Positions 1,536-43,916 of a DNA stretch of 63,968 nucleotides are shown here, in pieces. The stretch is from a virus. Made by a program: the position numbers and the translations under genes. The notes under the pieces are model-generated. The model was given only the letters and a program-made list of their open reading frames with translations, had not been told where the DNA came from and searched no databases. Location: the IMG/VR virus record IMGVR_UViG_3300030380_005539, positions 63,060 to 127,027 of that record; one strand, given 5' to 3'. The stretch's first letter is position 1. The number at the start of each line of letters is the position of its first letter.

Positions 1536-2102
1536 ATGGGAAATTCAGAAATAACAATCAGAGTACAAAATTACAACGGTAATAACGGATTTATTAATTC
1601 ACTACAGAATGGATTAAAAAAGTATGGGTCATTGACAGAAAGACAACTTTATGCGGCGGGTAAGTTTTTTACTAAACTTAATAACCCAACTCAAACACAA
1701 CAACCTAAAGAGGTTAATGTGGACATTAAAATCACTAACTTTATCGCTAAGAGAGTTGCGGAAGAGAATGAATTAGAGTTTAGACCTTTTTTAATGACTA
1801 TTAGTAAGGTTTTGAAAGAGACTGAAAGAGCGTATCAAGTAGTTGGTAAACTAACTGTTTCAGATGTTTCATCTTGTAGAGTGTGTGGTAGAGATTTAAC
1901 GGATTGGAGATCACAGGCGACTGGTGTAGGACCAGTTTGTTCCAAAACATTAGGTATACCATATGTAAAGAATGAATTAGATGTTGCAGTTTATAAGAAA
2001 CTACTTAAAATGAAAATTGATAAAATTGGAGATTTAACTTTTTGGTTGGCAAAATCACAAATTGTCGAAGGAAAAGAAGATTTAGAAAATAGTTTAAAAT
2101 AA
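1536..2102 (+). CDS. Zinc-finger protein of the DUF6011 type
   Basis: This is a 188-residue protein. Residues 112-140 contain C-x2-C (C114, C117), then R-D-L-T-D, a Ser, and GVGPVC (C135). This is the pattern C-x-x-C-G-R-x-L ... G-[IV]-G-P-x-C of small zinc-binding domains found in phage and actinobacterial proteins (DUF6011). I see three cysteines clearly; the fourth ligand is not obvious. The N-terminal 90 residues are helical and contain LTERQLYAAGKFF, similar to linkers in proteins annotated as phage nucleic-acid-associated. The role is unknown; binding of nucleic acid or protein is likely. It has its own host-type promoter and ends in a strong shared terminator. Confidence 0.65.
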   Translation: MGNSEITIRVQNYNGNNGFINSLQNGLKKYGSLTERQLYAAGKFFTKLNNPTQTQQPKEVNVDIKITNFIAKRVAEENELEFRPFLMTISKVLKETERAYQVVGKLTVSDVSSCRVCGRDLTDWRSQATGVGPVCSKTLGIPYVKNELDVAVYKKLLKMKIDKIGDLTFWLAKSQIVEGKEDLENSLK

Positions 2103-2128: not shown

Positions 2129-2689
2129 TTATACTCTTTTTTTCTTTTTTGTTGGTAGTGGTTTTAATTTACCACCGAATATTGTATCACCTATTTTGAT
2201 TTTAATATCTTCAGTTACTAAAGATTTATCTAAATACTCTTCTACAACCTCTCTAACTACATCCCCTATCTCTTCTCTAACTATTTGTCTAATATCATTA
2301 GTTTCATAGTTAGGTGTAGGTGTTGGTAATGGTTGTTGTGTAGGTACACTTTCATTTACTAAATCTTGTACATCTGCCAATTCAAAAGTATGATTAGGAG
2401 ACTCAGGAATCTCTATTGGGTTGTTTACCATTGCATCTAATACTTCTTTAGGCATCTTAGAGGTTTTTAAATTTCTATATTGTCCCCCTTGTGGTGCTAC
2501 TGATCTCGTACTACTTTTAGAATGTCTACTAATATAATTTTCTGTTAAGTTAGGCATTTCTTTTTCTTCACCAGAAAAAGAGTTATTACTTTGTGTGTTT
2601 CTAATAGTAGTTCCGTGATTTTCATCGGTTTTTTGCATTACCGCTTTAGATCTACTTAATATATCTACCAATTTGTTAGCGCTACTCAT
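2129..2689 (-). CDS. Hypothetical protein, last gene of a minus-strand operon
   Basis: This 186-residue protein is not recognised. The first 60 residues are polar and Ser/Asn-rich and look disordered, the middle has a Pro/Thr linker (QQPLPTPTPNYE), and residues 130-155 (DIRQIVREEIGDVVREVVEE) predict a strong amphipathic helix, possibly a coiled coil. A short beta-like IKIKIGDTIFGGKL segment and a basic tail (PTKKKKRV) follow. That final layout recurs in marine T4-like structural or scaffold-associated proteins as far as I recall, but I cannot assign a function. It sits nine bases after the preceding gene and ends at the shared terminator. Confidence 0.55.
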   Translation of the reverse strand: MSSANKLVDILSRSKAVMQKTDENHGTTIRNTQSNNSFSGEEKEMPNLTENYISRHSKSSTRSVAPQGGQYRNLKTSKMPKEVLDAMVNNPIEIPESPNHTFELADVQDLVNESVPTQQPLPTPTPNYETNDIRQIVREEIGDVVREVVEEYLDKSLVTEDIKIKIGDTIFGGKLKPLPTKKKKRV

Positions 2690-2698
2690 AATATTTTT

Positions 2699-3067
2699 TT
2701 ATTCAAATTTTGTTATATAATATATGTTTGTCATATCTTTATCTCCTGTTGGGTTAAATAGTGGTTTAGCTTCGTTAAATGTTCCCCCTAATGTTCTCAT
2801 ATTTTCCATCCTATCAGTTCTAAATAATTTCCATCCTGGTTGTATTGTTTTAGTGTCTCCACCTACTTGATACACCCTAATTACTTCATTTCCCGCTTTA
2901 GATACGCCATAACAATATATTTGTATCCATCTTTTTCCTTTTCCACCTGGATCTTCTTCATCGTCATAGTTTAATTCAATAATCCTACGTTTACGCATAG
3001 CATTCATTATGTCACCCTTAGCGGCAACTTCTAATATAAGACTTTCTGCTAAATTGTAAAGTTTCAT
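2699..3067 (-). CDS. WYL-like domain protein with cleavable-leader-like N-terminus
   Basis: The protein has 122 residues. Residues 1-13 (MKLYNLAESLILE) resemble the capsid-targeting leaders of T4 internal proteins, with I-L-E at 11-13 matching the [I/L]-x-E prohead-protease site. Residues 25-105 look like a small WYL/Sm-like beta-barrel: RRIIELNYDD, a turn, WIQIYCYGVSKAGNEVIRVY (the 'G-N-x-V-x-R-x-Y' hallmark), then QPGWKLFRTDRMENM. WYL domains are ligand- or nucleic-acid-sensing modules in regulators and phage-defence proteins. I infer a virion-packaged WYL-like protein. The domain call rests on pattern memory only. Confidence 0.55.
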   Translation of the reverse strand: MKLYNLAESLILEVAAKGDIMNAMRKRRIIELNYDDEEDPGGKGKRWIQIYCYGVSKAGNEVIRVYQVGGDTKTIQPGWKLFRTDRMENMRTLGGTFNEAKPLFNPTGDKDMTNIYYITKFE

Positions 3068-3073
3068 TATGAT

Positions 3074-3388
3074 TTAAGTAGCTTTAAATTGATTTTTATT
3101 ATCATCTGTTGATGGTGTCTCATATGGTTTTTCTGCACTATACTTATTTTTTGCAATATTCGCAATTCTACCAGAACCTGGTTCGTTAGATGAACCTATT
3201 TCATCACTTAATGAACCACCATTATATGTATCTAAAAAATTGCCTGTACCTTTACCTTTATTATCCCCATCTGATTTAGCATTAGGGTGTTTAGCTCCAT
3301 ATTGGTTTCCTTCACCATTCTGATAAGTATTTTTGATTATATTGTCTGTTCTGAATTGTTTACCTAATTCTTCTAATTTACTTGCCAT
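3074..3388 (-). CDS. Hypothetical Gly/Asn-rich protein (104 aa)
   Basis: No family is recognised. After a short helical start (SKLEELGKQFRTDNII) the chain is low-complexity, rich in Asn, Gly, Asp and Lys (GAKHPNAKSDGDNKGKGTGN), with little hydrophobic content, so it is probably disordered. It is spaced six bases from the next gene and four from the previous one, so it is clearly part of the 4737-to-2129 minus-strand operon. It could be a virion decoration or scaffold-associated protein; nothing in the sequence proves it. Confidence 0.5.
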   Translation of the reverse strand: MASKLEELGKQFRTDNIIKNTYQNGEGNQYGAKHPNAKSDGDNKGKGTGNFLDTYNGGSLSDEIGSSNEPGSGRIANIAKNKYSAEKPYETPSTDDNKNQFKAT

Positions 3389-3392
3389 TTTT

Positions 3393-3929
3393 TTATTTTT
3401 TATACTTATACGTTATTAATTTTTTTATTTTTTTTACTTCTTCATAAACTGGTTTACCTCTTGAAATTTGTCCACTTATATCTTTGTGTATTTTAGGTAA
3501 CTTTATTTTTAAAGTTTCCCTATTAACTTTATTAACATCTTTATTATGAGACTTAATAAATTGATTGGTTATTCCTGTTTCCATTTTTATTTTTTTAGGT
3601 GCTTTAATAGCTTCAGTTTCTTTGTTTAATGTAGAATCAACCCAATTATGCATTGTTTTACCACCATTCAATCTATATTCCATATCATCATTACTACCTT
3701 CAAAAGAATCGAACCAGTTTTTAATTCTTTTCATTTGTGAATATTCTATAAGATTATTTTGTAATATTCCTTTAGCTCTTTTATAACCTTCAGTAGTTTT
3801 ACCCCCTTTATTTAAAGATTCATATCTATCTACTGCAGTACTGAGTGCATTAGTAACATATTCAGGACATGACCAATGTTTACCACGTAACTCACTGTTA
3901 CCACCTTTATTATCCTTCCTGTTCGCCAT
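3393..3929 (-). CDS. Hypothetical basic protein (178 aa)
   Basis: This is a Lys-rich protein with the segments RLNGGKTMHNWVDSTLNKE and GITNQFIKSHNKD around residues 85-130, and a basic C-terminus (KKIKKLITYKYKK). The segments look like conserved phage protein motifs but I cannot name the family. It has no signal peptide or membrane segment. Its ATG lies inside the 3' end of the upstream gene (20-base overlap), which suggests translational coupling. The basic composition would suit a nucleic-acid-contacting or head-associated role; this is inference. Confidence 0.5.
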   Translation of the reverse strand: MANRKDNKGGNSELRGKHWSCPEYVTNALSTAVDRYESLNKGGKTTEGYKRAKGILQNNLIEYSQMKRIKNWFDSFEGSNDDMEYRLNGGKTMHNWVDSTLNKETEAIKAPKKIKMETGITNQFIKSHNKDVNKVNRETLKIKLPKIHKDISGQISRGKPVYEEVKKIKKLITYKYKK

Positions 3930-4737
3930 ATTTAATCTTATCCCCTAAAATTTCTCTATGTTTTTCACTAATTTCTTCTACCTCAACATTTTTAATTAGG
4001 TGGTTGAGAAGTATTGCTAATTCTTCACCATTTAACTCTTCTTTTTCTACTAATTTAAGTAAATGGTTTAATTTATGAATAACCATAGGTTTTTCAAAAG
4101 TTTTTTTTAATTCACTAATATCTGCGATTTCTAATTTATCACCAACTAGATCTTGTTCATTAGTTTTTTTAATTATACCTTTATCTGTTTTTTTAGATAA
4201 AAACATTTCATCTACTAAACCTTTCATTTTATTTTCTTCTAAAAAATCAAAATTAAATTCGGTATCATAAGGTATTTGATAATTTGCCCAATCTTCAGAA
4301 GGATCTAAATCATATCCCGGTGCTTTTGGTTTATGGTAGTGTTTACTAATATCTTTTTTAGCAATTTTTCTACCTATTTCTCTTTCATCTCTACTATATT
4401 TTTTCTTTGTATTATGAAACGCATCTAAATCTTGTAATGCTTCATGAGAAATATTTTCATCTATATTTTCTTCTTCATTTACAACATAACTATAATTAAT
4501 CCCATAATACGGACCACCATAAATAAAATATGCTTCTGGACCTTGTGTAGCCGCTCTAGCAAAATCATCACTAGTTTTTTTAGATTTTATAACTGAAGGT
4601 GTTACTTTATAGTTATCATCTTTATTTATTAATGCACCAGCAGTATCAACTAATTCATTAACTTCTTCCTCTTCAACCACATTTTTCTTTTCCTCAATAT
4701 ATTTATGTATATCGGACTTTTTATATGTTTTATTCAT
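3910..4737 (-). CDS. Hypothetical acidic protein, first gene of minus-strand operon
   Basis: The 275-residue protein is strongly charged, with an acidic N-terminal patch (EEKKNVVEEEEVNELVD), a Tyr/Gly segment (YFIYGGPYYGINYSYVV) near residue 75, and a C-terminal helical region rich in Glu, Leu and Lys (LNHLLKLVEKEELNGEELAIL). I do not recognise a fold. The gene is the promoter-proximal member of a five-gene unit; the ATATTTAT element on the minus strand lies 16 bases upstream of its ATG. In T4-like phages such small acidic proteins near structural genes are often scaffold or assembly factors, but that is a guess. Confidence 0.5.
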   Translation of the reverse strand: MNKTYKKSDIHKYIEEKKNVVEEEEVNELVDTAGALINKDDNYKVTPSVIKSKKTSDDFARAATQGPEAYFIYGGPYYGINYSYVVNEEENIDENISHEALQDLDAFHNTKKKYSRDEREIGRKIAKKDISKHYHKPKAPGYDLDPSEDWANYQIPYDTEFNFDFLEENKMKGLVDEMFLSKKTDKGIIKKTNEQDLVGDKLEIADISELKKTFEKPMVIHKLNHLLKLVEKEELNGEELAILLNHLIKNVEVEEISEKHREILGDKIKYGEQEG

Positions 4738-6496: not shown

Positions 6497-7921
6497 ATGA
6501 GTGGTACTGATTATGGAGGTTTAGGAGGTGTTAAAATTACTGGATTTATATCACCAGGTAGTACTGATGATAAGTATGCAGTTATAGACACTCAATTAGG
6601 TATTGATGGATTAAGAAACTATAGTGGTACTACTACAGAGGTTCTAAGTGGTGAGACTATAACAGAATTGCGCCGTAGAGCTGGTATGATTGTAGGTGTT
6701 GAGGGTGGTGATAGATATTTTAAACTAAAAGATAAAGATCCTTGGGATTTTGATTTAACTGACTGGGAAGAGATTAATTTTGGTGGTGGATCTGGTTCTG
6801 CAATTACCGGTGGTACATATAGTGCTGGCACATTAACTTTAGTAAATGGTAGTGGTGATACTATTAATATTAGTGGTTTTACTATAGAAGATTCTTATAC
6901 TGATGGTGTAACTTTGGTAGGTAATGTATTACAATTTGATAATAACGTATTTGGTTCTAATTTTTACAATGTAGACTTATCCGCATTATCAGGTGGAACT
7001 GCGGATTCTTATACAGATGCGGCGACATTAGTTGGTACTACTTTACAATTCGATAATAATTTATATGGTGCCAATTTCTATAATGTTGATTTGTCTCCTT
7101 TATCTGGTGGTACAATACCTAATTATATAAATAGTGCTGCAACACCTACAACAGTAGGTGGTATAACCGCAGGAAGTTCATTTCCTGCACCAGGTAAGAC
7201 AATGCAAGAAATGTGGGACGATTTATTATACCCATATATCCCACCAACCTTTAATTCTTTTACTCGTAGTGATTTACTTAGTAGTTATGAAATAGGTCAG
7301 GAGACTACACCAGGTGTTCCGGTTTCTAAAGATTTTAGTTGGTCTACTACACAACCCGCAAATGTAGATGATTTAATACCTAATAGTGTGAAGGTTACTG
7401 ATTCTAGTGGTAATATATTATTAGATAGTCAACCTAAGGCAGGAACAACAGGTGCAACAATACAAGTATCTGACGTAAAAACAAGTGTAGGTTCAGAACC
7501 CTTATACACAGTACATGGAATTAATACTCAAGGGGCATCTTTTACTCGTAACATTTCCGCAACATGGAAATCCTATGTATATTTTGGTATGGGTGGATTA
7601 ACATTAACTGGTGGGCAAATGGTTACCTTATCAAATAGTCAGTTTGTAACGTCATTAGGTTTTGGTTCGGTTCTTACGGTTGCAAATTCGGGTAGTAATT
7701 ATTTATGGGTATGTGTACCAGATATACTAACTAATGTTGGTTCATGGACATCTGCAGGAGCACCTATTACTGATTTTGCTGGTGTAACACCAATACCAGG
7801 ATCTTTTCAAACAGATATTAGTATAACTAATAGTCAAGGTCTACCAGTAAATTATAAAGTGTGGAGACAAACATTTGCTCAAACAAGTAACCCATACAAA
7901 TTTCAATTAAACAATGTATAA
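6497..7921 (+). CDS. Tail-fibre-type protein, paralogue of both neighbours
   Basis: This 474-residue mosaic has two parts. Residues 1-115 carry GLGGVKITGFISPGSTDDK and a very conserved ITELRRRAGMIVGVE ... DRYFKLKDKDPWDFD segment that is nearly repeated at the start of the following gene. Residues 204-474 match the C-terminal domain of the preceding gene (NYINSAATPTTVGGI, TMQEMWDDLLYPYIPP). Between them two near-identical 35-residue units (DSYTD..TLVG..LQFDNN..G.NFYNVDLS) stand in tandem. It lies 27 bases after its neighbour with no ATATTTAT element, so it is probably co-transcribed. A surface fibre or baseplate decoration is inferred; no enzymatic motif is visible. Confidence 0.65.
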   Translation: MSGTDYGGLGGVKITGFISPGSTDDKYAVIDTQLGIDGLRNYSGTTTEVLSGETITELRRRAGMIVGVEGGDRYFKLKDKDPWDFDLTDWEEINFGGGSGSAITGGTYSAGTLTLVNGSGDTINISGFTIEDSYTDGVTLVGNVLQFDNNVFGSNFYNVDLSALSGGTADSYTDAATLVGTTLQFDNNLYGANFYNVDLSPLSGGTIPNYINSAATPTTVGGITAGSSFPAPGKTMQEMWDDLLYPYIPPTFNSFTRSDLLSSYEIGQETTPGVPVSKDFSWSTTQPANVDDLIPNSVKVTDSSGNILLDSQPKAGTTGATIQVSDVKTSVGSEPLYTVHGINTQGASFTRNISATWKSYVYFGMGGLTLTGGQMVTLSNSQFVTSLGFGSVLTVANSGSNYLWVCVPDILTNVGSWTSAGAPITDFAGVTPIPGSFQTDISITNSQGLPVNYKVWRQTFAQTSNPYKFQLNNV

Positions 7922-7933
7922 AAATATAGATAT

Positions 7934-10192
7934 ATGGCAAATTATGTAGACATAGGTGGTGTTCCAATATCAGGATTTATTTCTCCTGGTACAACTAGTG
8001 ATACTTTTCCCGTTATTGATACTACTTTAGGTATTGATGGTTTAAGAAATTACAGTGGAGGTACTGAAATATTTTCGGGAACTACCATAACAGAATTGCG
8101 CCGTAGAGCTGGTATGATTGTAGGTATCGAAAGTGGTAGTAGATATTTTAAACTAAAAGATAAAGATCCTTGGGATTTCGATGAAACTGATTGGGAGGAA
8201 GTTAATTTCGGTGGTGGATCTGGTTCTGCAATTACCGGTGGTACATTTAGTGCGGGTACATTAACATTAGTAAATGGTAGTGGTGATACTATAACAATAA
8301 CTGGATTTACTAGTGGTGGAGATAGTTATTGGATATCTGGTTCAACAGGTATCGGTTCAATTAAAACAATTTCTGGTGGTAATATATCACAAGGAGATTA
8401 CTCTATATCTCAAGGATTTAATAATAGTGTTGTTGTTTCACCTTTATCTACAACTATAGGTGGTTCTGGCAATACAGTGACTAAAACTTATTTGTCTTCT
8501 ATTATAGGTGGGTTGGATGATGAAATAGTTGCATCATCTGGTACTACAATTATTGGTGGTGCCACTAATCAAATTGCTGCGGGTAGTGATAACGGTATTT
8601 TTCAAGGTCAAAATAATCTTTTTAATAGTTCATATAATTCATTAATTTTAGGTGGTGACGATAATAGTATTACTAAAGTTACATACTATGGTACATTAAT
8701 TAATAGTATAGAAAGTGATATAATGGAATCTTTATCCTCTCAAATTTTAGGGGGTAATGGAAATTTAATATCAGACGGAAACCATTCATTTATAATAGGG
8801 GGTACTGGATTAACAATTACTAACGGACAATTTTCTACCATTATTAATGGTTTAGAAAATCAACTAATAGGTGCAGGTGGTAATAACATAGTTTATGAAA
8901 GTTCTATAATTGGGGGTAGTAATAATATAATGTCATCCGCACAAATAGGATCATCAATTATTGGTGGTAGTGGTAATACTATTAATGGGTATTATTCTGG
9001 TAGTCTTTTTGGTAAATACAACTCTATTATTGGTGGTGTTAGCAACCAAATAGGTATTGGGGTAGAGAGAAATGGTATAATAGGGGGTACTGATAATAGA
9101 ATTAACGGTGAAGGTGGTATTTCTAATGGTGTAATTGCCGGTGGAGATAACAATTTTATTGGGGAGGCGATGAATAATAAAAATTCGTTCATTGGTGGCG
9201 GTACAAATAATTCAATACTTTATGATTCCTCAGTCCCGCTTATTTCACCTAATTCCGCAATTATCGGTGGTAGTGGTAATACTATTGCTACATTAGGAGA
9301 AGAAATAGAGGGTAATACAGTAATTTTAGGTGGATATAATATTACTGCCACTACGGCAAATACAGTTTACGTACCTAAATTAAATATAAGAGATGTAGTT
9401 TCTGGTACTTCAATATATAATTTAGGTATAGATTCTAATGGTTTTGTGGTAACGGGTACAACTAATAATGGTGGTGGTAGTGGTACAACAATAAGTGCAT
9501 ATACGTATAATTCTACAAATAATACCTTTAGTATTGATATAAGCGGAAGTAGTTCATTTGACGCATCTTTTAATACAGTTTCTGGACTTACTGTAACTAA
9601 TGATTTAACAGTAAATAATGAATTAGAAGTTAATGGTTTTGCATATGTGAATGGACACTCAATTTTTAGTGGTGATACAGACACTTATTTATTTGGTCCA
9701 GTACTACAAATAGCAGGAACTGGTGACACAGAACCAATATTTGCAGTAGAAGGTTCGGTAGGAGAATTATTTACTGTTACTGATACATTAACTGGCGAAC
9801 TATTTGGGGTTAATAATGTATCTGGATTACCTATTTTAGAAGTTTATGATGATAATACGATAATGATGGGTAATCATTTGGCACCTTCGCTAAATACTAC
9901 AGTTATTATCAATCAAAATGTAGGACAGTCTATTCTTTATAGTATTCCCACTACGGCATATACTGGTGGGTTCTTTGAATATACTGTAAAAAACACTTCT
10001 GGTGTTAGAGCGGGATCTATAATGTCAGTTTTTAGTGGATCATCAATAGATTTTAATGAAACTACAACTAATGATATAGGGGATACTACTGATGTTACTT
10101 TTGATATGAATATAAGTGGTACATCTGCTAATTTATTAGTGGCAGCAACTAGCAATGGTTGGGAAATAAAAACAATAGTAAGAAGTATATAA
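7934..10192 (+). CDS. Fibre with YadA-like beta-roll repeats
   Basis: This protein has 752 residues. The first 115 repeat the ITELRRRAGMIVGIE module of the preceding gene. Residues 150-480 are made of many short imperfect repeats of the form S-x-I-I-G-G-x-x-N-x-I, as in SSIIGGSNNIM and GIIGGTDNRIN. This is the pattern of left-handed beta-roll heads of trimeric adhesins such as YadA, in which stacked turns form a sticky surface. A conserved exit module follows (VYVPKLNIRDV ... [14 protein letters not shown]), then fibre shaft sequences. The C-terminus lacks S74. A trimeric receptor-binding or glycan-binding fibre is the best reading; the target is unknown. Confidence 0.7.
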   Translation: MANYVDIGGVPISGFISPGTTSDTFPVIDTTLGIDGLRNYSGGTEIFSGTTITELRRRAGMIVGIESGSRYFKLKDKDPWDFDETDWEEVNFGGGSGSAITGGTFSAGTLTLVNGSGDTITITGFTSGGDSYWISGSTGIGSIKTISGGNISQGDYSISQGFNNSVVVSPLSTTIGGSGNTVTKTYLSSIIGGLDDEIVASSGTTIIGGATNQIAAGSDNGIFQGQNNLFNSSYNSLILGGDDNSITKVTYYGTLINSIESDIMESLSSQILGGNGNLISDGNHSFIIGGTGLTITNGQFSTIINGLENQLIGAGGNNIVYESSIIGGSNNIMSSAQIGSSIIGGSGNTINGYYSGSLFGKYNSIIGGVSNQIGIGVERNGIIGGTDNRINGEGGISNGVIAGGDNNFIGEAMNNKNSFIGGGTNNSILYDSSVPLISPNSAIIGGSGNTIATLGEEIEGNTVILGGYNITATTANTVYVPKLNIRDVVSGTSIYNLGIDSNGFVVTGTTNNGGGSGTTISAYTYNSTNNTFSIDISGSSSFDASFNTVSGLTVTNDLTVNNELEVNGFAYVNGHSIFSGDTDTYLFGPVLQIAGTGDTEPIFAVEGSVGELFTVTDTLTGELFGVNNVSGLPILEVYDDNTIMMGNHLAPSLNTTVIINQNVGQSILYSIPTTAYTGGFFEYTVKNTSGVRAGSIMSVFSGSSIDFNETTTNDIGDTTDVTFDMNISGTSANLLVAATSNGWEIKTIVRSI

Positions 10193-10193
10193 T

Positions 10194-11000
10194 ATGGCAA
10201 TTTTTCATTCACCCAAAATAGTAACTGACGGTTTAATATTTTATGTTGACGCACAAAATACTAATTCATACAATATAAATGATGGGGTAGTTAATAATCT
10301 TGGTAAAAAAGAAACAGGAACAAACTTTAGAAGATTAGAATTCGAAGAAAACACAGATCAAGGGCCTGGGGGAATACCACCATCTGCAACTACCTCACAA
10401 ATAGTAGTGACCACGGATAATAATATAAAATCTTTCTTTTTTGATGGTAGTGATTATTATTTTCAATCGATAGGAAAACCTATGGTAAATATGCCTTCAG
10501 AATTAACCTATACTACATGGATAAATCATAATAGAAGTGGTCCTTTAGGTTCTACAATATTTTGTCCGGGTACTGCTAATGGTGGAGGAAACATTAATAG
10601 GAGTTGGTTGTACATATTTAATAACACTATTCAAATGGCAATTACTGATGGTACACAACAAGGATATGGTACTTATACGGCATATACTGAAACTAATTAC
10701 CCCTTAGATTTTAATTATGTAGTTACTACATGTTCTGATAATGGTGATGGTACTAGTACAATTAAAATATATGTTAACGCTGATTTAGTAGAAACTAGAA
10801 GTGATGTGCCGGTGATATCGGGTAGAATTGCTGGTACAAATGAACCAGATGTTGCTAGGGGGGGTAGTTCTGGTGGACAAAGATTTAGTGGTAAAATTGC
10901 GTCAGCATCTATGTATAATATATGTTTAAATCAAGAGGAAATATTAAGAAATTATGTTGCAATGAGAAGTAGATTTAAACACCCATCTCGAATTTATTAA
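10194..11000 (+). CDS. LamG/concanavalin-A-like lectin-domain protein
   Basis: This 268-residue protein begins PKIVTDGLIFYVDAQNTNSY, the classic opening of phage and Bacteroidota LamG-like jelly-roll proteins ('GLxxYxDAxNxxSY'). Strand-like segments ELTYTTWINHN, WLYIFNNTIQMAI, NYVVTTCSDNGDGTSTIKIYVNADLV and a final FSGKIASASMYNICLNQEEI (the 'G-x-I-x-x-x-x-I/Y-N-x-x-L-x-x-x-E-I' end) complete the fold. Such domains usually bind polysaccharide. It follows the previous gene after one base, so it is co-translated with it. It may sit at the fibre tip or be a separate adhesin; binding specificity cannot be told. Confidence 0.75.
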   Translation: MAIFHSPKIVTDGLIFYVDAQNTNSYNINDGVVNNLGKKETGTNFRRLEFEENTDQGPGGIPPSATTSQIVVTTDNNIKSFFFDGSDYYFQSIGKPMVNMPSELTYTTWINHNRSGPLGSTIFCPGTANGGGNINRSWLYIFNNTIQMAITDGTQQGYGTYTAYTETNYPLDFNYVVTTCSDNGDGTSTIKIYVNADLVETRSDVPVISGRIAGTNEPDVARGGSSGGQRFSGKIASASMYNICLNQEEILRNYVAMRSRFKHPSRIY

Positions 11001-11024
11001 TATTTTAGTTTTATTAACTTTAAC

Positions 11025-11032
11025 ATATTTAT
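11025..11032 (+). promoter_or_regulatory. ATATTTAT upstream element
   Basis: The element, followed by ATATAAA, lies 46 bases before the ATG at 11079, in a 78-base gap that is otherwise A/T-rich. It marks a new transcription unit for the 2046-residue fibre. Confidence 0.5.
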
Positions 11033-11078
11033 ATATAAATAATAACATTTAATAACTGGAAAGGGAAAGTATTAAATA

Positions 11079-14000
11079 ATGGCACACGAATTTATAATAA
11101 AAAATGGGTTTGTATCTAAAGGTAATTCCTTAGTTGAGGGAAATCTTTCAGGGCAAACATTCAATATTATTAACACACCTGTTAATAATAACTCAGCAAC
11201 AGAAATTTTAGTAAGAAATACTACTAGTGGTAATGTAGAATATAGAGATTCTTCTACTTTAAGTGGTGCATCATCAACTGATGTTTTTGTTAATAGTGGT
11301 TCTGCAGATGTAACCACTCAACAATTAACATTCACAAATACAACTGGCGGAACATTTAATGTGACAAATGCGGCAGCTTTATTTACTGATAACGATATTA
11401 ATGTAACCGGTGGAACTTATGATGTAAACACTGGATGTGTTACGTTTGCTACAAATAGTGGTTCTACTTTTGATATATGTGGTTTTGTTACAGGATTAAC
11501 TAATACTTTTGTATCTGGTGGTACATATGATAGTAGTACATCCGAAATAACATTTACCAACACAACTGGAGGAACTTTTAATGTTGATTTATCATCATTA
11601 AGTGGTAAAACGTCATTCACAGTAGCCGGAGATAACGGTACACCTTTTACTATAACTTCTGGTGATACACTTACTTTTGAGGGTTCTACAGGTATTGACA
11701 TAGGGGTTGCTGCTACCGATAGAGTTTTAATCGCGGTAGACTATTCAGGTGCGGATTCAGTTATTATGGCGGCGACTAATGGAACTGGTATAACAGTAGA
11801 TGGTGCAAACGATAAATTACTTATATATGATAATGATACTGCAACAGTAAAATATATTAATGCTAACCAACTTCCTTCTAGTGGGGCGGCTAGCACACCT
11901 ATAACCGGATATTCTTATAATCCCGCTAGTAATACTTTTACTATAGGTTTAAGTGGTGGAACTTCTTTTGATTCACAAATTTTAGAAGTTAGTGGTTTAA
12001 CAGTAACTAATGATTTAATTGTTAGTGGTAGTACAGGAATAGGAACTGATACACCAACAGAAAAGTTACATATAAAATCCACTACAAATGCTAAAATTAA
12101 AATAGAAGCAGACATAAATGACGTAGATGATACGGATACTGCAGATATTTTACTATCACAAGATGGTGGTATTTCAACCTCTAATATTGGTATTTCACCT
12201 GATTCGATAAACGATTTAGTTATAGGTGTTAACTCAACTACCGATCCTAGTATTAAGTTTGCGACAAGAAATGATGGTACTACTTTTAGTACTACTGCAG
12301 ATACCAAAGTAACTATAACTAATAGTGGTAGTGTAGGTATTGGTACAATAGACCCAACGGAGAAATTACATGTTATGGGCGACTTCAAAATGGAAGAACC
12401 TGGTGGAACATTCGATTCAGACCTTAACAGTGGTAACGCACTTGTTAGATTAAGTGCGGGTACAACAAATCAACTTGCTAGAATAGCAGTTTCTAATCCG
12501 GGAGAGGGTGGTATTACATTTGGGGTTAGAGGTAGTACAGAGGCTAGTTTTCCTGGATATGGCGCACAAGGTGACGGTTATCTTTATTCTTCCATTGACC
12601 AAAACGGTTTAAATATTATTTCTGCACCTTCATCTCCTGCAGGTACATTACCAGATTATATTAGGATGTATGCAGGACAAGATGCAGATGGTGGTGTTCC
12701 TGATATACACATTCAAGGAAAAAATACCACAGATTCTTCAAGAGGTAATGTAGGAATCAATACCGATACACCCACAGAAACATTTCATGTTGATGGGACG
12801 GTAAGAATTGAAGATGGCACAGAACAACTTGGTTATGTATTAACTTGTGACGCAGATGGGGTAGCAAGTTGGCAACCTTCCTCTGGTAGTACAACTGGTG
12901 GTACAGTTTATTGGGATATAGAAAATGGTGGATTAAAAAGTATTAATCAAAATGCAGGAACAATCAATGGTACGTCAACCGGTTCAGTATTAGTGGGGGG
13001 TTACTTTAACACTAACGATATTTATGACAGTTTAACTTCAACTATAATAAATGGTAATAGTAATACAATTAGTGGTGGTACTACATCTGCTATAATATCT
13101 ACAAGTAATTCTAATATTAAAGGAACTATAGATTATGGTGTTATTATTGGTGGTAGTGATAATAATATTGAGGATACTGTAAGTGATTCTGAAAGGGCAT
13201 TAATTGCGGGTGGTGTTGGAAATGATATAAATAATTCATTTAATTCAGCAATGTTAAGTACTGTATCATCTACTATAAGTGGAGGTAGTTCAAATATTAT
13301 ATTGGGTGGTAATGAGTTAAATATTATTGAAGAAAGTGGTGGATCTTTAATGTATTCGTCTATTATTGGAGGTAATCAAAATACTATACAAGATACTACA
13401 AATGGTGGATCTCCTCAGCGTTCCACAATTATTGGTGGTAGATTTAACACATTGTCTGATAGTAGAGATTCTCTTATTTTATCATCTACAGGAAGTGAGA
13501 TTACTGGTAGTTGTACTAATTCATCGATATATAATGCTTCAAATTCCCTTATAAGTAATGCAACCGCTTCGTCAATTTTAGGTGGTTCTGTTAATATTAT
13601 TAGTGGTGGTACTGAGAATGCTATTATTGGTGGTTCACAACATAAAATAATTAATGGTACACAAAGATCTGTTATACTTGGGGGTAGGAAGATTAGTGGT
13701 GGTACAACTGACACAGTTTATGTACCTAATTTAAATATTGGAACTGTTGGTGCTGGCACACCATTAATTAATTTAGGATTAGATGCTAATGGATTTGTGG
13801 TTACTGGAACTACAGGTAGTGGTGGTGGAAATTCAGGTATTACAGGTTATACATACGATCCAACAGAAAATGAATTTGCAATAGGTATAAGTGGTAGTAC
13901 ACCTCAAACTGCAATCATAGATGAAATGAATGGGTTAACCATTAACGGTGAATTAAGAGTTACTGGAAATACTCAATTAGATAGTGATTTAATAGTAGAT

Positions 14001-17000
14001 GGTAACACAGGAATGGGTACAGATAACCCATTAGAAAAATTAGATGTTAGAGGTGATGTATTAATATCAAATCCAGTTGATAATGCTTCACTAACACTAA
14101 GTGCAGTTTCTACGAGTAACTCTGTAATTGATTTTGATAATGAGGGTGTATCTACACCTTTTGCTAGAATTGAAGGTACGACTTTCGGGGGTGGTGTATC
14201 AGGTAATTTACAATTTTATACTTATCCTACAGGTGGACCACTAAGTGAAGTAATGGTATTAACAAATAACCAAAGGGTTGGTATTGGGGATATTACAAAT
14301 AATGATGTAGATAAAACTCTACATGTTATGGGCGACTTCAAAATGGAAGAAACTGGGGCAATATTTGAGTCAGACCTTAACTTAAGTAGCGGTGCGAATG
14401 TTAAATTAAGTGCGATTACAACAGATCAACTTGCTAGAATGTCAGTTGCCACACCAGGAAATGGTGGTATTACATTCGGGATTAGAGGTAGTGCAGAGGC
14501 TAGTTTTCCGGGATATGGTGCACAAGGTGATGGTTATCTTTATTCTTCTATCGATCAAAATGGTTTAAATATTATTTCTGCACCTTCAAATCCCGCAAAT
14601 GCATTACCAGATTATATTAGGATGTATGCAGGACAAGATGCAGATGGCGGAATACCAGATATACATATACAAGGTAGAGACACCACAGATTCAACAAGAG
14701 GTTATGTAGGAATCAATACAGATACGCCCACAGAAACATTTCATGTTGATGGTACAGTAAGAATTGAAGACGGAACAGAGCAAAATGGTTATGTCTTAAC
14801 ATGTGACGCAGATGGGGTAGCAAGTTGGCAGCCCTCATCTGGTGGAACAGGAACAGGATTTTGGGCGGTAGAAAGTGGTGGATTAAAAAGTATTAACCAA
14901 AATTCTGGAACAATTAGTGGGACATCGACTGGGGCAATATTAGTAGGTGGTTATTTCACTAATAATGATATTACGGATGGTAGAGCTTCTACAATAATAA
15001 ATGGTGGGGCTAATATAATAAGTGGTGCATCGGCAGATGCAATTATTTCATCAACTAATTCAAGTATTATTGCAAATAATGGAAGTCTTCAGTATAGTGT
15101 GATTGTTGGTGGGTTAAATAATTTTATTCAAGGTGGATCAAGTGACACATTAATTGGGGGTGGTATAAACAACGAAATAGTAGATGGTGAAACCTCTTCA
15201 ATAATTGGTGGAAGAAATAACCTTATAGATGATAGTGATGAAGCAGGAATTTATACTTCTGAAGATTCTACATTAAATAAGGCTACAAAATCAGCCATTA
15301 TTGGTGGTAATGATCACTTTTTGGCTGCTGCAAGATCAGTTATAGTAGGTGGTAGTGATAATTATATGGATGGTGCATCTAGATCAGTTATTCTGGGTGG
15401 TAGTAATATTACTGCAGACACTTCAAATACCGTTTATGTTCCTCAATTAAATATTAGAGACGTACTTGATAATGAACCAGTAGGTACTTTAGGGTATGAC
15501 GCAAATGGTTTTGTTGTAGATAGTAATGTCTCAGATATTACAGGTGGAACACTTAATGGTGACGTATTAACATTAATAAATAATAATGGAAACAATATTA
15601 CCATATCCGGTTTCAGTAGTGGTTCGACTAGTGGATTTTGGGAAGAAGGTGGGGAAGGAAATTCTCTATATGACATTAAAGGTAGTCACATATTAACAGG
15701 ATCATCAAGATACTCAATGATTGCTGGGGGCGAGACTAATAGAATTACTGATCATGATTCTTCAGGTATCTTTGTAGGTAAAAATAATGTATTAACAGGG
15801 AGCTCAGTAGGATTTAGTGAATCACAAAATGCAATAATAGGTGGTGAAGATAATATTATATCTTCTAACTTAGGATATATGGATAATAACATTGTTTTAG
15901 GTGGTAATAATAACTCTATTAGTGATGGTAGGATAAGAAATAGTATCATAATAGGTGGGAAAAATCATAGTATAAATGATACTATTAATGATAGTGTAGT
16001 TATAGGTGGTAATGGTAATAAAGTAAAAAGTCAGAGAAGTGTTGTATTGGGTGGTGCTGGAATCACAGGAACAACAGATAATGATACAGTATATGTACCT
16101 AGATTAAATATTAGAGATGTTTCTAATGGAACACCTACAATGAATTTAGGTGTTGATGCTAACGGAGTGGTAGTGTCAGCAGCAACCGGTTCTAATTCAG
16201 GAAATTGTATAAGTGAATTATGGGTATCCAATATAGAATCATGCTCACCTTTAAATATTAATACGTATAATCAGGGTAATATCTATATAGGTACACAAGG
16301 TGGTTTACCATTAGTTACTATAGATATTACAACTCCAGACGAACCAGGAATTTTATTTGGTGAAGAAAGTTTTATAAAATATAATGAAAGCCAAAAGAAA
16401 TTAAAAGTTGGTGCAGACAGTGCTACTGGTTCTAAATTAGTATTAGAAACAGATGGTAGAGAAATAGTAGAAGTTAGTACTGGTACAACTAGAGTTATAA
16501 AAGGTGATTTAGAAGCAGAAGATGGTAATATAATAGTAAAATCAGGTAATAGTAAATCTTTAATTGTTGAGGATATTCCTGATGTTAGTGGTGCTAACTT
16601 AGGTACAGATTTAGATGGTAAAATAATTGACTTACCTTCTGATAGTAGGTGTAAATTTAATATTCTGGATATACCAAACGTTGTGGATCCTATATTGTTC
16701 TTAGACGCATTAGAGGGTTATCAATTCGAATTTCACCCTAGAACAAGAATTAGTAGTACCGGAAAAAAACATTATGGGTTTAAAGTAGATGATTTTAGAG
16801 ATAATTTATTTGATGGAAATGTTATATCTGCAGAACAAAGAAGGGTTAATAATATAGCAAAAACTTTTGTTAGAACATGTAAAACTCAGTATGATATAGA
16901 TGGATCTGGTAATAAAGCAACTGTAGATTCTATGAATTATGTTGATTTAATACCATTTATGGTAGAAGGTATTAAACAATTAAATACTAATATAAATAAT

Positions 17001-25707: not shown

Positions 25708-28700
25708 ATGGGATTTCCTAAAAAAATAAGTCAATTACCCTTAAATTTAAATTTAAAACCTGAAGATTTATTGGTAACTGTAAATGAAAATGATGTAACT
25801 TCTAAAATTGAGTTAACTCAAGTGATTAGTTTTTTAACTGGTAGTACAAATACTTTTGTTACTGGCGGTACATATAATGATATAACAAAAAACATAGATT
25901 TTATTGGTACGGATGGGTTTCCACCTTTTAGTGTTAGTTTAAGTGGAATAAGTGACACATTTGTTAGTGGTGCGACTTTGAGTGGTGCGACTTTAATATT
26001 AAGTAGAACAGATGATGATGAAATAAGTGTAGACTTAAGTTCTTTTACTGCAGATACAAATACTTTTATTACTGGTACAACTTTAATAGGTACTCAATAC
26101 ACTATAAATGAGAATAATGGGGCTTCCTACCCTACTGATTTTAATCCTATTGTTAGTGGTAAAGTAGATACTTCACTATTCGATACGTATAGTGCTAATA
26201 CTCAAACAGAAATTAATAATAAATTAGATACAACTGTTTTCAACACTTATAGTGGTAATACACAAACAGAGATTAATAATAAGTTAAATATTACTACTTT
26301 TGACACATATACGGCAAACACCGTAGATAACAATACTTTTATTACTGGTACAACGTTAGTTGGTACGGAGTATACTATTAACGAAAATAATGGATCTGCA
26401 TTTACTACCAATTTTGAAAGTATAGTTAGTGGTAAAGTAGACACTTCGCTATTTGATACGTATAGTGCTAATACTCAAACAGAAATTAACAATAAGTTAG
26501 ATACAACTGTTTTTAATACTTATTCTGGACTAACTCAAACTGAAATTAACAATAAATTAGATACTAGTATATTCGACACATATACGGCAAATACTGTAGA
26601 TAATAATACTTTTATTACTGGTACAACGTTAGTTGGTACGGAGTATACTATAAATCAAAATAATGGATCTGCGTTTACTACCAATTTTGAAAGTATAGTT
26701 AGTGGTAAAGTAGATACTTCACTATTCGATACTTATACTGGGGATACTCAAACTGAAATTAATAATAAATTAGATACTACTACCTTTAATAGTTATAGTG
26801 CTATTACTGATATGTTAATAGGTACTAAGTTAGATACAACTGTTTTTAATACTTATTCTGGACTAACTCAAACTGAAATTAACAACAAGTTAAATATTAC
26901 TACTTTTGATACTTATACCGCCAATACTTCGGATAATAATACTTTTATTACTGGAACTACTTTAATAGGAACTGAATACACTATAAATGAAAATAATGGA
27001 TCTGCATTTACTACCAATTTTGATAGTATAGTTAGTGGTAAAGTAGATACTTCACTATTCGATACTTATACGGCAAATACCGTAGATAACAATACGTTTG
27101 TTAATAGTGGTAGTGCCAATGCTGGAACACAACAATTAACATTTACAAATACAACTGGTGGTACATTTAATGTCACAAACGCCGCAGCCTTATTTACCGA
27201 TAACGATGTTAATGTAACTGGTGGTACATATGATAATAATACTGGATGTGTGACATTTAGAACTAATAGTGGATCAACGTTTCCTATTTGTGGATTTGTT
27301 ACAGGATTAACTGATACGTTTGTAACTGGAGGTACATTATCGGGAACTGATTTAATATTAGAAAAAAGTAACGGTATAGATGTAAATAGTATAGATTTAT
27401 CTACCCTAATAAGTGGTAAATTAGATACTACTTTATTCAATACATACAGTTCTACAACTCAAACAGAAATTAACAATAAATTAGATACTACCACATTCGA
27501 TACATATACGGCAAATACTTCGGATAATAATACTTTTATTACTGGTACAACTTTAATAGGAACTCAATATACCATCAATGAGAATAATGGATCTGCCTTT
27601 ACGACTAATTTTGAAAGTATAGTTAGTGGTAAAGTAGATACAACATTGTTTGACACATATAGTGGTAATACACAAACAGAAATTAACAATAAATTAGATA
27701 CTAGCACATTCGATACATATACGGCAAATACGGTAGATAATAATACTTTCATTACCGGCACAACCTTAGTTGGTACTCAATACACTATAAATGAGAATAA
27801 TGGATCTGCATTTACTACCAATTTTGAAAGTATAGTTAGTGGTAAAGTAGATACAACATTGTTTGATACATATAGTTCCACAACTCAAACAGAAATTAAC
27901 AATAAATTAGATACTACCACATTCGATACATATACTGCAAATACGGTAGATAATAATACTTTTATTACTGGAACTACTTTAATAGGAACTGAATACACTA
28001 TAAATGAAAATAATGGGTCTGCGTTTACGACTAATTTTGAAAGTATAGTTAGTGGTAAAGTAGATACTTCACTATTCGATACGTATAGTTCCACAACTCA
28101 AACTGAAATTAATAATAAGTTAGATACTACATTATTTGACACATATACGGCAAATACTGTAGATAATAATACTTTCATTACCGGCACAACTTTAATAGGG
28201 ACTGAATATACGATTAATGAAAATAATGGATCCGCCTTTACGACTAATTTTGATAGTATAGTTAGTGGTAAAGTAGATACAACATTGTTTGATACATATA
28301 CGGCAAATACTATAGATAATAATACATTTGTTACTGGCGGTACACTAAGTGGTGCTACTTTAGTATTAGATAGAACTGATGATGGTAAAGTAAGTGTAAA
28401 CTTAAGTGCATTATCAGGAGGAACTGGAGGTGGTGATATAAATACAGGTAATGTATTATGGGTAGATTCTATATTTGGTGATGATGCGACTGCACTTACT
28501 AATAGACAAGATAAACCTTATTTAACTATAGAACAAGCATTAAATGATTCAACAAATGGTGATACTGTAATAGTAAGACCAGGTGAATATGATGAAGAAG
28601 AATTAGTTGTACCACAAGGAGTTTCTTTAGTTAGTGAAGGTGGTTGGGAAGTGACAATAATTGGTAAAGCACCGGCAACCGCATCTAGAGACATTGTAGA

Positions 28701-31236
28701 ATTAAATCAAGATTCATTTATAGATGGGTTTAGTATTAATGTACCACAAGGAAGTTTAAATGGTATAATTGCATCCAATAGTAGTGGGACATCTACTGCA
28801 AACAATATTACATTCTATGGTAATGGTGGTGCAGGTAGTAGTGGTACTGGTTTATTTAAAACAGGTGGTGGTAAATTAATAGGTATCTCAATTAGAGTAG
28901 AAGGTGGGGGGATGTCTAATTGTTTAAAAGTAGATTCAGGTACTTTAGCATTAGAAGGAGTTCACGTACCACAATCTACTGGTGATATTGATAATGTGTT
29001 ATTGGTAACCACTTCGGGTGGTACTAATGCGGGTAGAGCACAAATGGTAGGGTTTAATTGTGGAAACACTAATGTAACTAACGCAATTAGAACTGAAGGT
29101 GGTAGTTCAGGAGTAATACCAGTGGCAAAAATATTTACACCTAATATAGCAAATTCAACTAACGCATTAAGTGCATCAGGAGATTATGAAGAAATTAATT
29201 TATTAGGGGGTTCATTAGAAAATGTAACTTATTCAGTAAAAGTAGATTTAACTGGTACAGGTATAGATGCATCATATAGAATAACATCTAATCACCAACC
29301 AAATTATATTTATCCACCGGCAGTAGCATATACTGCAGAGTTTGGTTTGGATTTTACACAAGAATCTACAGATGTATTCAATTCAAGTAAAAATTTATTT
29401 GGTTTAGATCAAATGAGTTTAGGGTTTGCTGAAAGAGGAACGGAAATGAATGTAGGTAGAGGTGCACCTTCTACTGTAGGTATGAAGATATTTACCACAG
29501 ATAATACTGCAAGTAGTGTTAGTGATGGAGGTAATTTTATTGATGTTACAGATGATGCAGAATCCAAAGAGGGTAGTACTATAACTTTTCAGAGTGGGGG
29601 GACTGGAACTACCATTTTATTTACTACACGAAGAGTTAGTAGTGATTTAACAACACCACTAAAATTTTATGGGTTAGATATAAATGTATTACAGAAAAAA
29701 GTTGGTGGTGATTACGTATTTGAATATTGGAATGGTACAGAATGGAAAAGGGATTTATGGCATATACACTCAGAAGATTTAGGTTATAGTTATGGTAATG
29801 ATTTATTTTTAAGAAGTCAGAGTAATGAAAATATTAGTTTTGAACTTAGTAAAGATTCAGCAAATTTAGAACCAAATAATGATCCTTGGTCAGCTAAGAC
29901 TATAAATGGTGTTAATGGTTATTGGATGAGATGTAGAATGATATCTACGGGAACAACTAAACCTACTATCGAACAAGTTAAAATAATTTATGACAGTAGT
30001 ACAATAAGTAAAGAAGGTGTATTATCATTTAATGGTAGATCACTACATAAAGAAGAAATAAATTTATTTATGGGCACATGGAGTGATCCAGCAGCAGACT
30101 TAGCAAATTTTAGTGTTACAGTTGGTGATGGAACAGGCGCAGAAACTTGGACACAACAGTTTTTAGAAGCACAATTTGCTACTAATGGTGACTTTGGTAC
30201 TTTCCTTATGAAAATACCACAAGGAATTAGTACTTCTCAAAGAGTTAAAGTAAAAATAACTTATATTTTATCGGGTACCGGTGATGAGGATACACCATCA
30301 GAAATGAGATTATCATTCTTACCTGTAGAGGTGGGTAATGTTCTTATTGCAGATTCAGATGGTGGTAAAACGCCTATACCTAGATCACCGCAAAATGTTA
30401 CACCATTTAATACTTATCCAGCGGAAATTGTGGAAATTGATACTGATTTTGGTGAAAATATAGTTTTACAGTCCACTGTTGGTACATTTGATATATCGAA
30501 TTATTATGAAGGCGATATAATTCTTTTTAGATTAGAACATATACAAGCCACAACTATTAATTTAATATCTTTTGATTTAGAAGTTTCTAAATGGAGTTTA
30601 GGTAAACAAGCACAACCTTTAGTGGTGGATACACAAATTCTATTAGAGGAAGATTGGAGTGATTTAGGTGTAGCGAATGGTTGGGTATTCAGACAACCAT
30701 CATCTACTGCAGGATCTCCACAAAATATATGGACAGTTAGTAGTGACACTTCTAGAACTGGTAGTAATTCAGCTTATATAAGTGATGAAACTTGGGCTGG
30801 TGGTGTACCACCGTATCAGTATGATGAAACTGGAGATGAAATAAATTCTTATATGTATGTAGATTTTGATGTCCCATCTAGTTGTATTGCATTAACAGTT
30901 AGCTTTTATTGGACATGTGTAGGTGAGTCTTCGTTTGATTATGGAATGGTTGGATTGGCACCTACAACATTTACACCACGTGACGATGGCGAAGAAGGTG
31001 ATTTTGAAGACTACGAAATGGGTGGTGGAACCGGTAATCGTTTAAATACTAGTTATGTGGCAGGTGCAACTGAGGGTAACTGGCAATTGGAGACAATATC
31101 AGTACCTACTACTTTATGGACTCCTGGTGAACAAGCTAGATTTATGTTAAGGTGGAGAAATGATGGTACTGTTGGATCTCAACCACCAATTGCAATAGAT
31201 GATATAACAATAACGTCACAATTTATCGTTACTTAA
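25708..31236 (+). CDS. Long fibre with tandem shaft repeats and beta-helix domain
   Basis: This protein has 1842 residues. After an N-terminal segment (PKKISQLPLNLNLKPEDLLV, typical of fibre attachment regions), residues about 110-900 consist of eight units opening NTFITGTTL, each followed by one or more KVDTSLFDTY / QTEINNKLDTT elements. These look like shaft repeats. [21 protein letters not shown] module at about 463-545 is shared with the fibre at 11079. From about residue 914 (VLWVDSIFGDDATALTN ... TIEQALNDSTNGDTVIVRPG) it reads like a right-handed pectate-lyase-type beta-helix, and the C-terminal third contains further beta-rich carbohydrate-binding-like domains. No lyase catalytic residues can be assigned. 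It is probably a side fibre or tailspike-like protein that contacts surface polysaccharide. Confidence 0.7.
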   Translation: MGFPKKISQLPLNLNLKPEDLLVTVNENDVTSKIELTQVISFLTGSTNTFVTGGTYNDITKNIDFIGTDGFPPFSVSLSGISDTFVSGATLSGATLILSRTDDDEISVDLSSFTADTNTFITGTTLIGTQYTINENNGASYPTDFNPIVSGKVDTSLFDTYSANTQTEINNKLDTTVFNTYSGNTQTEINNKLNITTFDTYTANTVDNNTFITGTTLVGTEYTINENNGSAFTTNFESIVSGKVDTSLFDTYSANTQTEINNKLDTTVFNTYSGLTQTEINNKLDTSIFDTYTANTVDNNTFITGTTLVGTEYTINQNNGSAFTTNFESIVSGKVDTSLFDTYTGDTQTEINNKLDTTTFNSYSAITDMLIGTKLDTTVFNTYSGLTQTEINNKLNITTFDTYTANTSDNNTFITGTTLIGTEYTINENNGSAFTTNFDSIVSGKVDTSLFDTYTANTVDNNTFVNSGSANAGTQQLTFTNTTGGTFNVTNAAALFTDNDVNVTGGTYDNNTGCVTFRTNSGSTFPICGFVTGLTDTFVTGGTLSGTDLILEKSNGIDVNSIDLSTLISGKLDTTLFNTYSSTTQTEINNKLDTTTFDTYTANTSDNNTFITGTTLIGTQYTINENNGSAFTTNFESIVSGKVDTTLFDTYSGNTQTEINNKLDTSTFDTYTANTVDNNTFITGTTLVGTQYTINENNGSAFTTNFESIVSGKVDTTLFDTYSSTTQTEINNKLDTTTFDTYTANTVDNNTFITGTTLIGTEYTINENNGSAFTTNFESIVSGKVDTSLFDTYSSTTQTEINNKLDTTLFDTYTANTVDNNTFITGTTLIGTEYTINENNGSAFTTNFDSIVSGKVDTTLFDTYTANTIDNNTFVTGGTLSGATLVLDRTDDGKVSVNLSALSGGTGGGDINTGNVLWVDSIFGDDATALTNRQDKPYLTIEQALNDSTNGDTVIVRPGEYDEEELVVPQGVSLVSEGGWEVTIIGKAPATASRDIVELNQDSFIDGFSINVPQGSLNGIIASNSSGTSTANNITFYGNGGAGSSGTGLFKTGGGKLIGISIRVEGGGMSNCLKVDSGTLALEGVHVPQSTGDIDNVLLVTTSGGTNAGRAQMVGFNCGNTNVTNAIRTEGGSSGVIPVAKIFTPNIANSTNALSASGDYEEINLLGGSLENVTYSVKVDLTGTGIDASYRITSNHQPNYIYPPAVAYTAEFGLDFTQESTDVFNSSKNLFGLDQMSLGFAERGTEMNVGRGAPSTVGMKIFTTDNTASSVSDGGNFIDVTDDAESKEGSTITFQSGGTGTTILFTTRRVSSDLTTPLKFYGLDINVLQKKVGGDYVFEYWNGTEWKRDLWHIHSEDLGYSYGNDLFLRSQSNENISFELSKDSANLEPNNDPWSAKTINGVNGYWMRCRMISTGTTKPTIEQVKIIYDSSTISKEGVLSFNGRSLHKEEINLFMGTWSDPAADLANFSVTVGDGTGAETWTQQFLEAQFATNGDFGTFLMKIPQGISTSQRVKVKITYILSGTGDEDTPSEMRLSFLPVEVGNVLIADSDGGKTPIPRSPQNVTPFNTYPAEIVEIDTDFGENIVLQSTVGTFDISNYYEGDIILFRLEHIQATTINLISFDLEVSKWSLGKQAQPLVVDTQILLEEDWSDLGVANGWVFRQPSSTAGSPQNIWTVSSDTSRTGSNSAYISDETWAGGVPPYQYDETGDEINSYMYVDFDVPSSCIALTVSFYWTCVGESSFDYGMVGLAPTTFTPRDDGEEGDFEDYEMGGGTGNRLNTSYVAGATEGNWQLETISVPTTLWTPGEQARFMLRWRNDGTVGSQPPIAIDDITITSQFIVT
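26060..28340 (+). repeat. In-frame tandem repeats encoding fibre shaft
   Basis: Eight copies of the NTFITGTTL ... NNGSAFTTNFESIVSGKVDT unit alternate with variable numbers of the shorter INNKLDTT unit. Unit lengths are multiples of three and differences are largely synonymous, so the repeats are protein-level. Confidence 0.85.
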
Positions 31237-43885: not shown

Positions 43886-43912
43886 AGGTGGGATTATTCC
43901 CACCTTTTTTTT
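43886..43912 (+). terminator. Intrinsic terminator after the sheath gene
   Basis: The perfect 8-bp stem AGGTGGGA / TCCCACCT with a TTAT loop is followed by eight T residues. It lies 22 bases after the sheath stop and reaches almost to the start of the next gene. Confidence 0.9.
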
Positions 43913-43916
43913 GTCT

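Follow-up and report, generated by a model that had tools for sequence, protein, structure and literature searches.

Where would a phage of the T4 type use a small protein that carries a WYL domain, the fold by which bacterial regulators sense nucleic acids and other signals, behind a short conserved leader, and is that leader removed on the way? The question is raised by an open reading frame (ORF) in the window (the whole stretch of DNA that we analysed, 63,968 nucleotides), which comprises bases 63060-127027 of the viral record IMGVR_UViG_3300030380_005539 (127,027 bases in all). The ATG start of this frame lies 6 bases past the stop of the preceding gene (Table 1). A later start at M21 was rejected, given the conservation of M1 and of the leader and the short distance from the end of the preceding gene to M1.

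Table 1. Position of the WYL gene, its parts, its conserved neighbours and its huge-phage homologues. Positions refer to the window, except for the last four lines, which refer to the stretches named.
Feature	Position	Strand	Basis
Precursor of 122 aa: leader, WYL domain and C-terminal family motif	2699..3067	-	ORF, relatives, fold, profiles
Leader, residues 1-13 (MKLYNLAESLILE), predicted cut after E13	3029..3067	-	entropy, [I/L]-x-E, pLDDT
WYL domain, residues 19-91	2795..3013	-	Pfam range, fold matches
Predicted ligand-groove strand, K80-L-F82-R83-T-D85-R86	2810..2830	-	invariance and spacing relative to CapW/PafB
C-terminal family motif, residues 97-112 (F..P.P.FNP.GDK.M)	2732..2779	-	outside Pfam WYL range
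Gene A, conserved neighbour	3910..4737	-	gene order, both clades
Gene B, conserved helical neighbour	3393..3929	-	gene order, fold
Gene C, conserved, before WYL	3074..3388	-	gene order, both clades
Gene D, conserved, after WYL	2129..2689	-	gene order, both clades
Huge-phage homologue, L053	5827-6729		
Huge-phage homologue, L054	5668-6924		
Huge-phage homologue, L059	7914-8879		
Huge-phage homologue, L060	8001-8882		

Relatives of the window protein were found in viral contigs. With the window protein as query we recovered 23 loci, and 25 contigs (these 23 included) yielded an alignment; a member of this first set used in turn as query revealed a second clade on 17 contigs, whose proteins are 37-41% identical to the window protein. 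Conservation was read from an alignment of 25 rows, made up of the window protein and 24 relatives that are 37-86% identical, with most near-identical loci omitted; counts for the first clade refer to a family set of 19 members. Five residues of the C-terminal motif (F97, N105, G108, D109 and M112) are invariant in all 25 aligned rows. A search for bacterial or prophage copies in GTDB genomes matched 16 pattern stretches, 0 of which were confirmed. PHROGs returned no family for the window WYL protein, and NCBIfam gave weak rows only, mainly a tRNA selenouridine synthase.

The leader is conserved like the domain and forms a unit separate from the variable linker: column entropy was 0.63 for residues 1-13, 1.51 for the linker (14-33), 0.53-0.62 for residues 34-92 and 0.80 for residues 93-122. 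M1, L3, Y4, I11, L12 and E13 are invariant in 19/19 first-clade members, and M1, L3 and E13 are retained in every row across both clades. Residue 11 is isoleucine in 24 rows and leucine in one, and residue 12 is free (L in 13, T in 9, N in 2 and V in 1), so that the triplets at positions 11-13 read ILE (13), ITE (9), IVE (1), INE (1) and LNE (1). According to section 2.5 of PMC9026906, the T4 protease gp21 cuts after L/I-X-E, and a fixed I/L at P3 and E at P1 with a varying P2 is as expected for the gp21 motif. The same paper describes N-terminal propeptides of 10-19 residues that direct T4 internal proteins into the prohead core before being cleaved off (PMC9026906). By its length and its L/I-X-E end the leader matches that pattern at the level of the motif, and its cleavage is predicted. 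The T4 internal proteins IPII and IPIII start with MKTYQEFIAEA in the T4 record, and IPI (MKTFKEF...) is less alike; since the IPII/IPIII start likewise has MK-x-Y followed by I-x-E, calling the leader T4-style, as the preliminary description had done on the basis of MKLYNLAESLILE, is fair, and the leader was quoted there correctly with its MK-x-Y start and I-x-E end.

Several properties of these 13 residues bear on how firmly they can be read as a propeptide. Tyrosine 4 is a targeting residue in T4 IPIII (PMC9026906, in excerpt), and in the phage family Y4 is kept in only 13/25 rows and not in the second clade. The AlphaFold model has pLDDT values under 50 for residues 1-8 and 10-12, and it places one helix over residues 3-25, which crosses the predicted cut site. 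Synonymous change was lower in the leader (0.18) than in the linker (0.45), the core (0.37) or the tail (0.26), so the conservation of the leader may partly reflect constraint on the DNA or mRNA around the translation start. A narrow leader pattern (M, one or two residues, Y, then [LI]xE), scanned with ATG starts only over a set of 715 distinct non-WYL ORFs, taken from the window and stretches L001-L060, gave four hits, none of them convincing, which argues that the leader is not a tag shared at the sequence level. Taking the evidence together, we consider that the leader is probably a cleaved head-targeting sequence.

The genes that such processing would call for are present in the same record. 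The portal protein gp20 (PF07230, E 3.2e-77) and the capsid protein gp23 (PF07068, E 2.2e-72) flank a gp21-type protease (Peptidase_S77, E 1.6e-25) as in T4, and comparison with the T4 record confirmed that gp20-gp21(S77)-gp23 is the T4 order; a 500-aa protein occupies the scaffold position of this head-gene cluster. The S77 protease exceeded the cut-off in 6/8 leader-bearing records, this one included, and the remaining two break off beside the capsid gene, where S77 would be. In the capsids of this phage and six relatives, the position that we take to be the maturation site was picked by eye, as the triplet ahead of a Ser/Gly-rich stretch and by analogy with T4. All seven T4-type records carry an [L/I]-x-E triplet there (LTE in 2, INE in 2, ISE in 1 and LNE in 2), at residues 58-60 in six and at the aligned place in the seventh, for which the ORF start had been predicted too late. 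Since the capsid N-termini contain further [LI]-x-E triplets, this position is a choice by eye; in the four huge-phage capsids that we read, the triplets lie elsewhere. The preliminary description had spoken of a packaging-type leader, and this agrees with the motif in 25/25 rows, with the S77 protease in 6/8 leader-bearing records and with the likely capsid positions.

Motifs of this kind were also counted at N-termini throughout the record. An [LI]xE triplet ending within residues 6-30 occurs in 49/93 of its proteins of at least 120 aa, compared with 27.4 ± 4.0 (maximum 41) for internal stretches and 30.6 ± 4.1 (maximum 43; 0/500 reached 49) for shuffled N-termini. Among the ATG-started ORFs of Flavobacterium phage immuto, the count was 45/119 versus 30.1 ± 4.3 for internal stretches and 27.0 ± 4.3 for shuffled N-termini; both N-terminal counts rest on mechanically called ORFs. 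As a separate observation, many unrelated proteins have short basic-hydrophobic leaders that end in [L/I]-x-E, such as KILRE/E, SLLLE/F, VLTE/Q and LIVE/Q (slash, end of the leader). They are found in the window at 35768-36178, 43911-44735, 44804-45214, 46327-49419 and 53963-55168 and in stretch L049 at 7011-14643, and it is possible that they are further internal or processed virion proteins.

Immuto was also the best-ranked named isolate for the capsid protein, with 37.7% identity across 70% of that protein; next came Microcystis phage Mel-JY01, with 42.1% identity across 56%. A Bacteroidetes host for the present phage is possible. Immuto carries T4-type head genes, and no WYL match was obtained among the ORFs of 150 of its 160 kb. 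A search for a paper on the immuto virion found none: PMC7077304, on Baltic Sea Flavobacterium phages, contains 0 mentions of immuto, and its passages gave no virion proteomics. A search for virion proteomics of the present phage group likewise found none.

We favor, with a probability of roughly 0.55, the reading that the protein is a T4-type internal head protein that is cut after E13 and whose WYL domain is carried with the genome into the host. This reading builds on the WYL fold (see below), the conserved [I/L]-x-E leader and the T4-type protease and capsid genes, all established by computation for the same phage. For the steps from packaging and cleavage to delivery, and for the ligand and an early role, we infer the following course. 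The precursor would be drawn into the prohead core through its first 13 residues, and a gp21-type protease would cut after E13 during capsid maturation. The freed domain of about 109 residues would stay beside the DNA inside the head and enter the host together with it; delivery into the host, argued from the analogy with T4 internal proteins, is in our estimate slightly better than an even bet. There the domain, which lacks DNA-binding and WCX parts, may use its predicted, conserved basic groove to bind a ligand that resembles nucleic acid, be it a short piece of ssDNA or RNA or an oligonucleotide, and may act in a core early step common to these phages.

The strongest competing explanation is that the protein stays in the infected cell as an uncut core factor, either a nucleic-acid-binding regulator or an assembly factor, encoded with its neighbours A-D. 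Residues 1-13 would then form a helix that docks onto a partner or onto the capsid core, and the [I/L]-x-E triplet would be coincidental or structural. The gene neighbourhood speaks for this explanation. The 25 first-clade loci show the order A-B-C-WYL-D over whatever part of it their stretches cover; gaps in the filtered ORF list concern L031, which is without C, and L034 and L035, whose WYL ORF (aligned as L011) was dropped by the overlap filter. Gene D of L043 and L045 gave no direct match, and that of L043 was recovered in two steps. In the second clade, B, C, WYL and D were recognized by profile in all 12 loci examined (of 17 contigs), and gene A was recognized in 4 of the 12; at its position the other eight have an ORF of 238-244 aa. 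In some loci the block is preceded by a DNA-polymerase-like gene (named by eye; a homologue of window 31657-34611), and glycosyltransferase-like, exonuclease-like and dUTPase-like genes, also named by eye, lie downstream. Over similar locus sets the WYL protein has a mean column identity of 77%, versus 50% for gene B and 45% for gene D. This fixed block, together with the high conservation, suggests a core function for the WYL gene rather than an arms-race accessory. The uncut factor is also consistent with the continuous helix predicted across the cut site and with huge-phage homologues that keep the WYL region and the C-terminal motif without the leader. It leaves unexplained, however, why P3 and P1 are constant when P2 can be L, T, V or N, and why the leader agrees with the likely capsid maturation motif, and we consider it somewhat unlikely.

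The neighbours themselves offer few clues to function. Neither Pfam nor PHROGs assigned genes A-D to a family with a known function, the weak PHROGs rows being nearly all of unknown function. The predicted fold of gene B is helical with no clear structural match, and tblastn of B and D against phages gave no match. By eye, A-D show no comparable conserved leader. A DUF6011 protein (window 1536-2102, E 1.5e-9) accompanies the WYL block in some first-clade loci. Elsewhere in the window, the protein at 36129-37055 joins a C-terminal glutaredoxin (E 2.6e-8) to an N-terminal region that weakly matched a 2OG-Fe(II) oxygenase (E 0.12) and gave a PHROGs row named 'DNA endonuclease' (E 2.5e-7), and the frame at 25708-31236 encodes a fibre-like protein of 1842 aa with many FDTYTANTVDNNTFITGTTLVGTEYTINENNGSAF-type repeats recognized by eye.

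The assignment of the cargo to the WYL fold draws on profiles, a structural model and conserved residues. Pfam WYL (PF13280) scored the window protein at 16.0 bits, under its cut-off of 21.8, and this is the only copy of the model in the record. The model was listed for 14/19 family members (best E 2e-4) and for 5/5 second-clade members tested, two of which exceeded the cut-off (L075 at 26.3 and L077 at 22.0 bits). The PADLOC WYL profile matched 19/19 family members (window protein E 4.1e-5, best 3.7e-8). As judged from such profiles, membership holds through the family and not through the window protein alone. A family sequence search of the PDB returned no WYL chain at E values up to 10 and two unrelated weak rows. 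The AlphaFold2 model of the 122-aa protein (mean pLDDT 81.4, pTM 0.74) is a predicted Sm-like SH3 barrel that is closest to WYL structures. With Foldseek against the PDB, the first nine rows were WYL regulators, with a best E value of only 7e-3. VIA-align rows 1-14 were all WYL regulators, with Z scores from 11.1 down to 8.3, led by BrxR (11.1), PafBC (10.7), DriD (10.3) and CapW (10.0); a CRISPR Cas-related protein (7.9), a chain of the Mnx complex (7.6) and Sm/Hfq barrels (at most 7.6) followed. The W-Y-L triplet itself is absent from the phage protein, and it is present in just a subset of the family according to the excerpted text of PMC11804915. The wHTH and WCX domains are likewise absent: of the 122 aa in total, 18 precede and 31 follow the WYL range, which leaves no space for them. 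We are highly confident of the WYL fold. The free-standing WYL domain postulated in the preliminary description is thus borne out by profile, fold and residues, and the structure prediction that it had called for revealed no other fold among the leading 14 VIA-align rows.

At the predicted ligand site, Y34, K80, F82, R83, D85 and R86 are invariant in 19/19 first-clade members; the second clade has K or R at positions 80 and 86 and keeps Y34, F82, R83 and D85. The last arginine is lost in the huge-phage protein of L060. The proposed ligand site of CapW includes Tyr145 together with Arg183, Phe185 and Arg189 (PMC9122588, in excerpt), and the phage strand has the same spacing as R183/F185/R189. 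For PafB, the excerpt of PMC11804915 reports that R211A/R214A abolished ssDNA binding and that the groove has at its entrance a basic patch made up of R181, R204 and R208. K80, R83 and R86 correspond to PafB R208, R211 and R214 by spacing alone, with no superposition, and Q76 falls at the place of R204; by spacing, no counterpart was placed for R181 or for the WYL tyrosine. YfjR of E. coli K-12, sought for residue mapping, had no PDB relative at E 0.01.

A groove of this kind could serve against the host as well. One form of head delivery, which we regard as quite unlikely, is that the domain sequesters the ssDNA or oligonucleotide that host WYL regulators need as a signal, whether damage sensors like PafBC and DriD or defence switches like BrxR and CapW, and so leaves the infection unregistered. 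The broader proposal of the preliminary description, a sensor or decoy directed against host WYL-controlled defence, found no positive evidence in the gene neighbourhood, a fixed block whose other genes gave no Pfam or PHROGs family with a known role. A decoy or ligand sponge, injected or expressed, that silences BrxR, CapW or similar systems would fit the nearest folds of the protein, which include those very regulators, and its putative ligand-site residues, kept although the output domains are missing; T4 IPI, moreover, is an internal anti-restriction protein (PMC9026906, in excerpt). The gene's fixed location and its conservation above that of B and D are nonetheless unlike the patchy, fast-changing distribution that we would expect of anti-defence genes, and we hold a decoy to be very unlikely. 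The weakest alternative, a Sm/SH3-like barrel unrelated to WYL with a structural role in the particle, could appeal to the window protein's score below the Pfam cut-off, to a best Foldseek E of just 7e-3 and to the Sm/Hfq chains that follow at Z up to 7.6, but the PADLOC matches throughout the family, the two second-clade members over the Pfam cut-off and the 14 leading VIA-align rows render it highly improbable.

If the internal head protein reading is true, WYL, the sensing fold of host regulators, joins the cargo delivered by T4-type heads, and a small phage-encoded binder would help in the search for ligands of phage-responsive WYL regulators. A rule is also suggested for finding internal proteins of uncultured large phages, namely a leader ending in [I/L]-x-E together with an S77 protease. 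Phage-encoded WYL domains as such are not new: a survey of jumbo phages places WYL domains in NAD-linked gene neighbourhoods (PMC7824862, in excerpt), and the BFVD neighbours of our protein include A0A8S5VTW8 (Ackermannviridae sp.), A0A6J5RNM4 ('WYL domain containing protein') and Gp296 of phage G; in the records consulted, none of these is described as a virion protein. Searches of the literature, mainly open-access, on WYL and phages, capsid targeting and internal proteins showed no virion WYL protein among the matches listed.

Larger homologues are encoded by huge phages (634-735 kb, from INPHARED). They matched the window protein at E 0.04 and 0.2 and the second clade at E 4e-4, matched one another better, and were found by the family profile in 3/4 cases (E 8e-7 to 2e-5, a small set). 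The Pfam WYL model has a copy in 4/5 of the relatives' records, all below the cut-off, and none in LR756501. The proteins of LR745206, LR756502, LR756504 and LR756501 share a homologous WYL region and a related C-terminal motif with the window protein; they differ in their length of about 300-418 aa, in extra N- and C-terminal regions and in being without the 13-residue leader in the four examined. The best S77-like matches in these four records reached 20-25 bits, below the cut-off. These weak matches sit in frames of 699-811 aa, versus 234-252 aa in the T4-type relatives.

Compared with the bacterial regulators BrxR, CapW, PafBC and DriD, the protein shares the WYL fold (Z 8.3-11.1) and, by spacing, has a similar predicted ligand strand of basic and aromatic residues, but it is phage-encoded, has only 122 aa and is without wHTH, WCX or the W-Y-L triplet. 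Like T4 IPI, IPII and IPIII, it combines a short leader ending in I-x-E (MKTYQEFIAE/A in IPII and IPIII) with a small cargo, and the portal, protease and capsid genes of the same phage are of T4 type. Unlike those internal proteins, its cargo is a WYL domain, Y4 is found in one clade only and packaging is predicted; and whereas T4 IP genes are not highly conserved (PMC9026906, in excerpt), the phage WYL gene sits in a fixed block.
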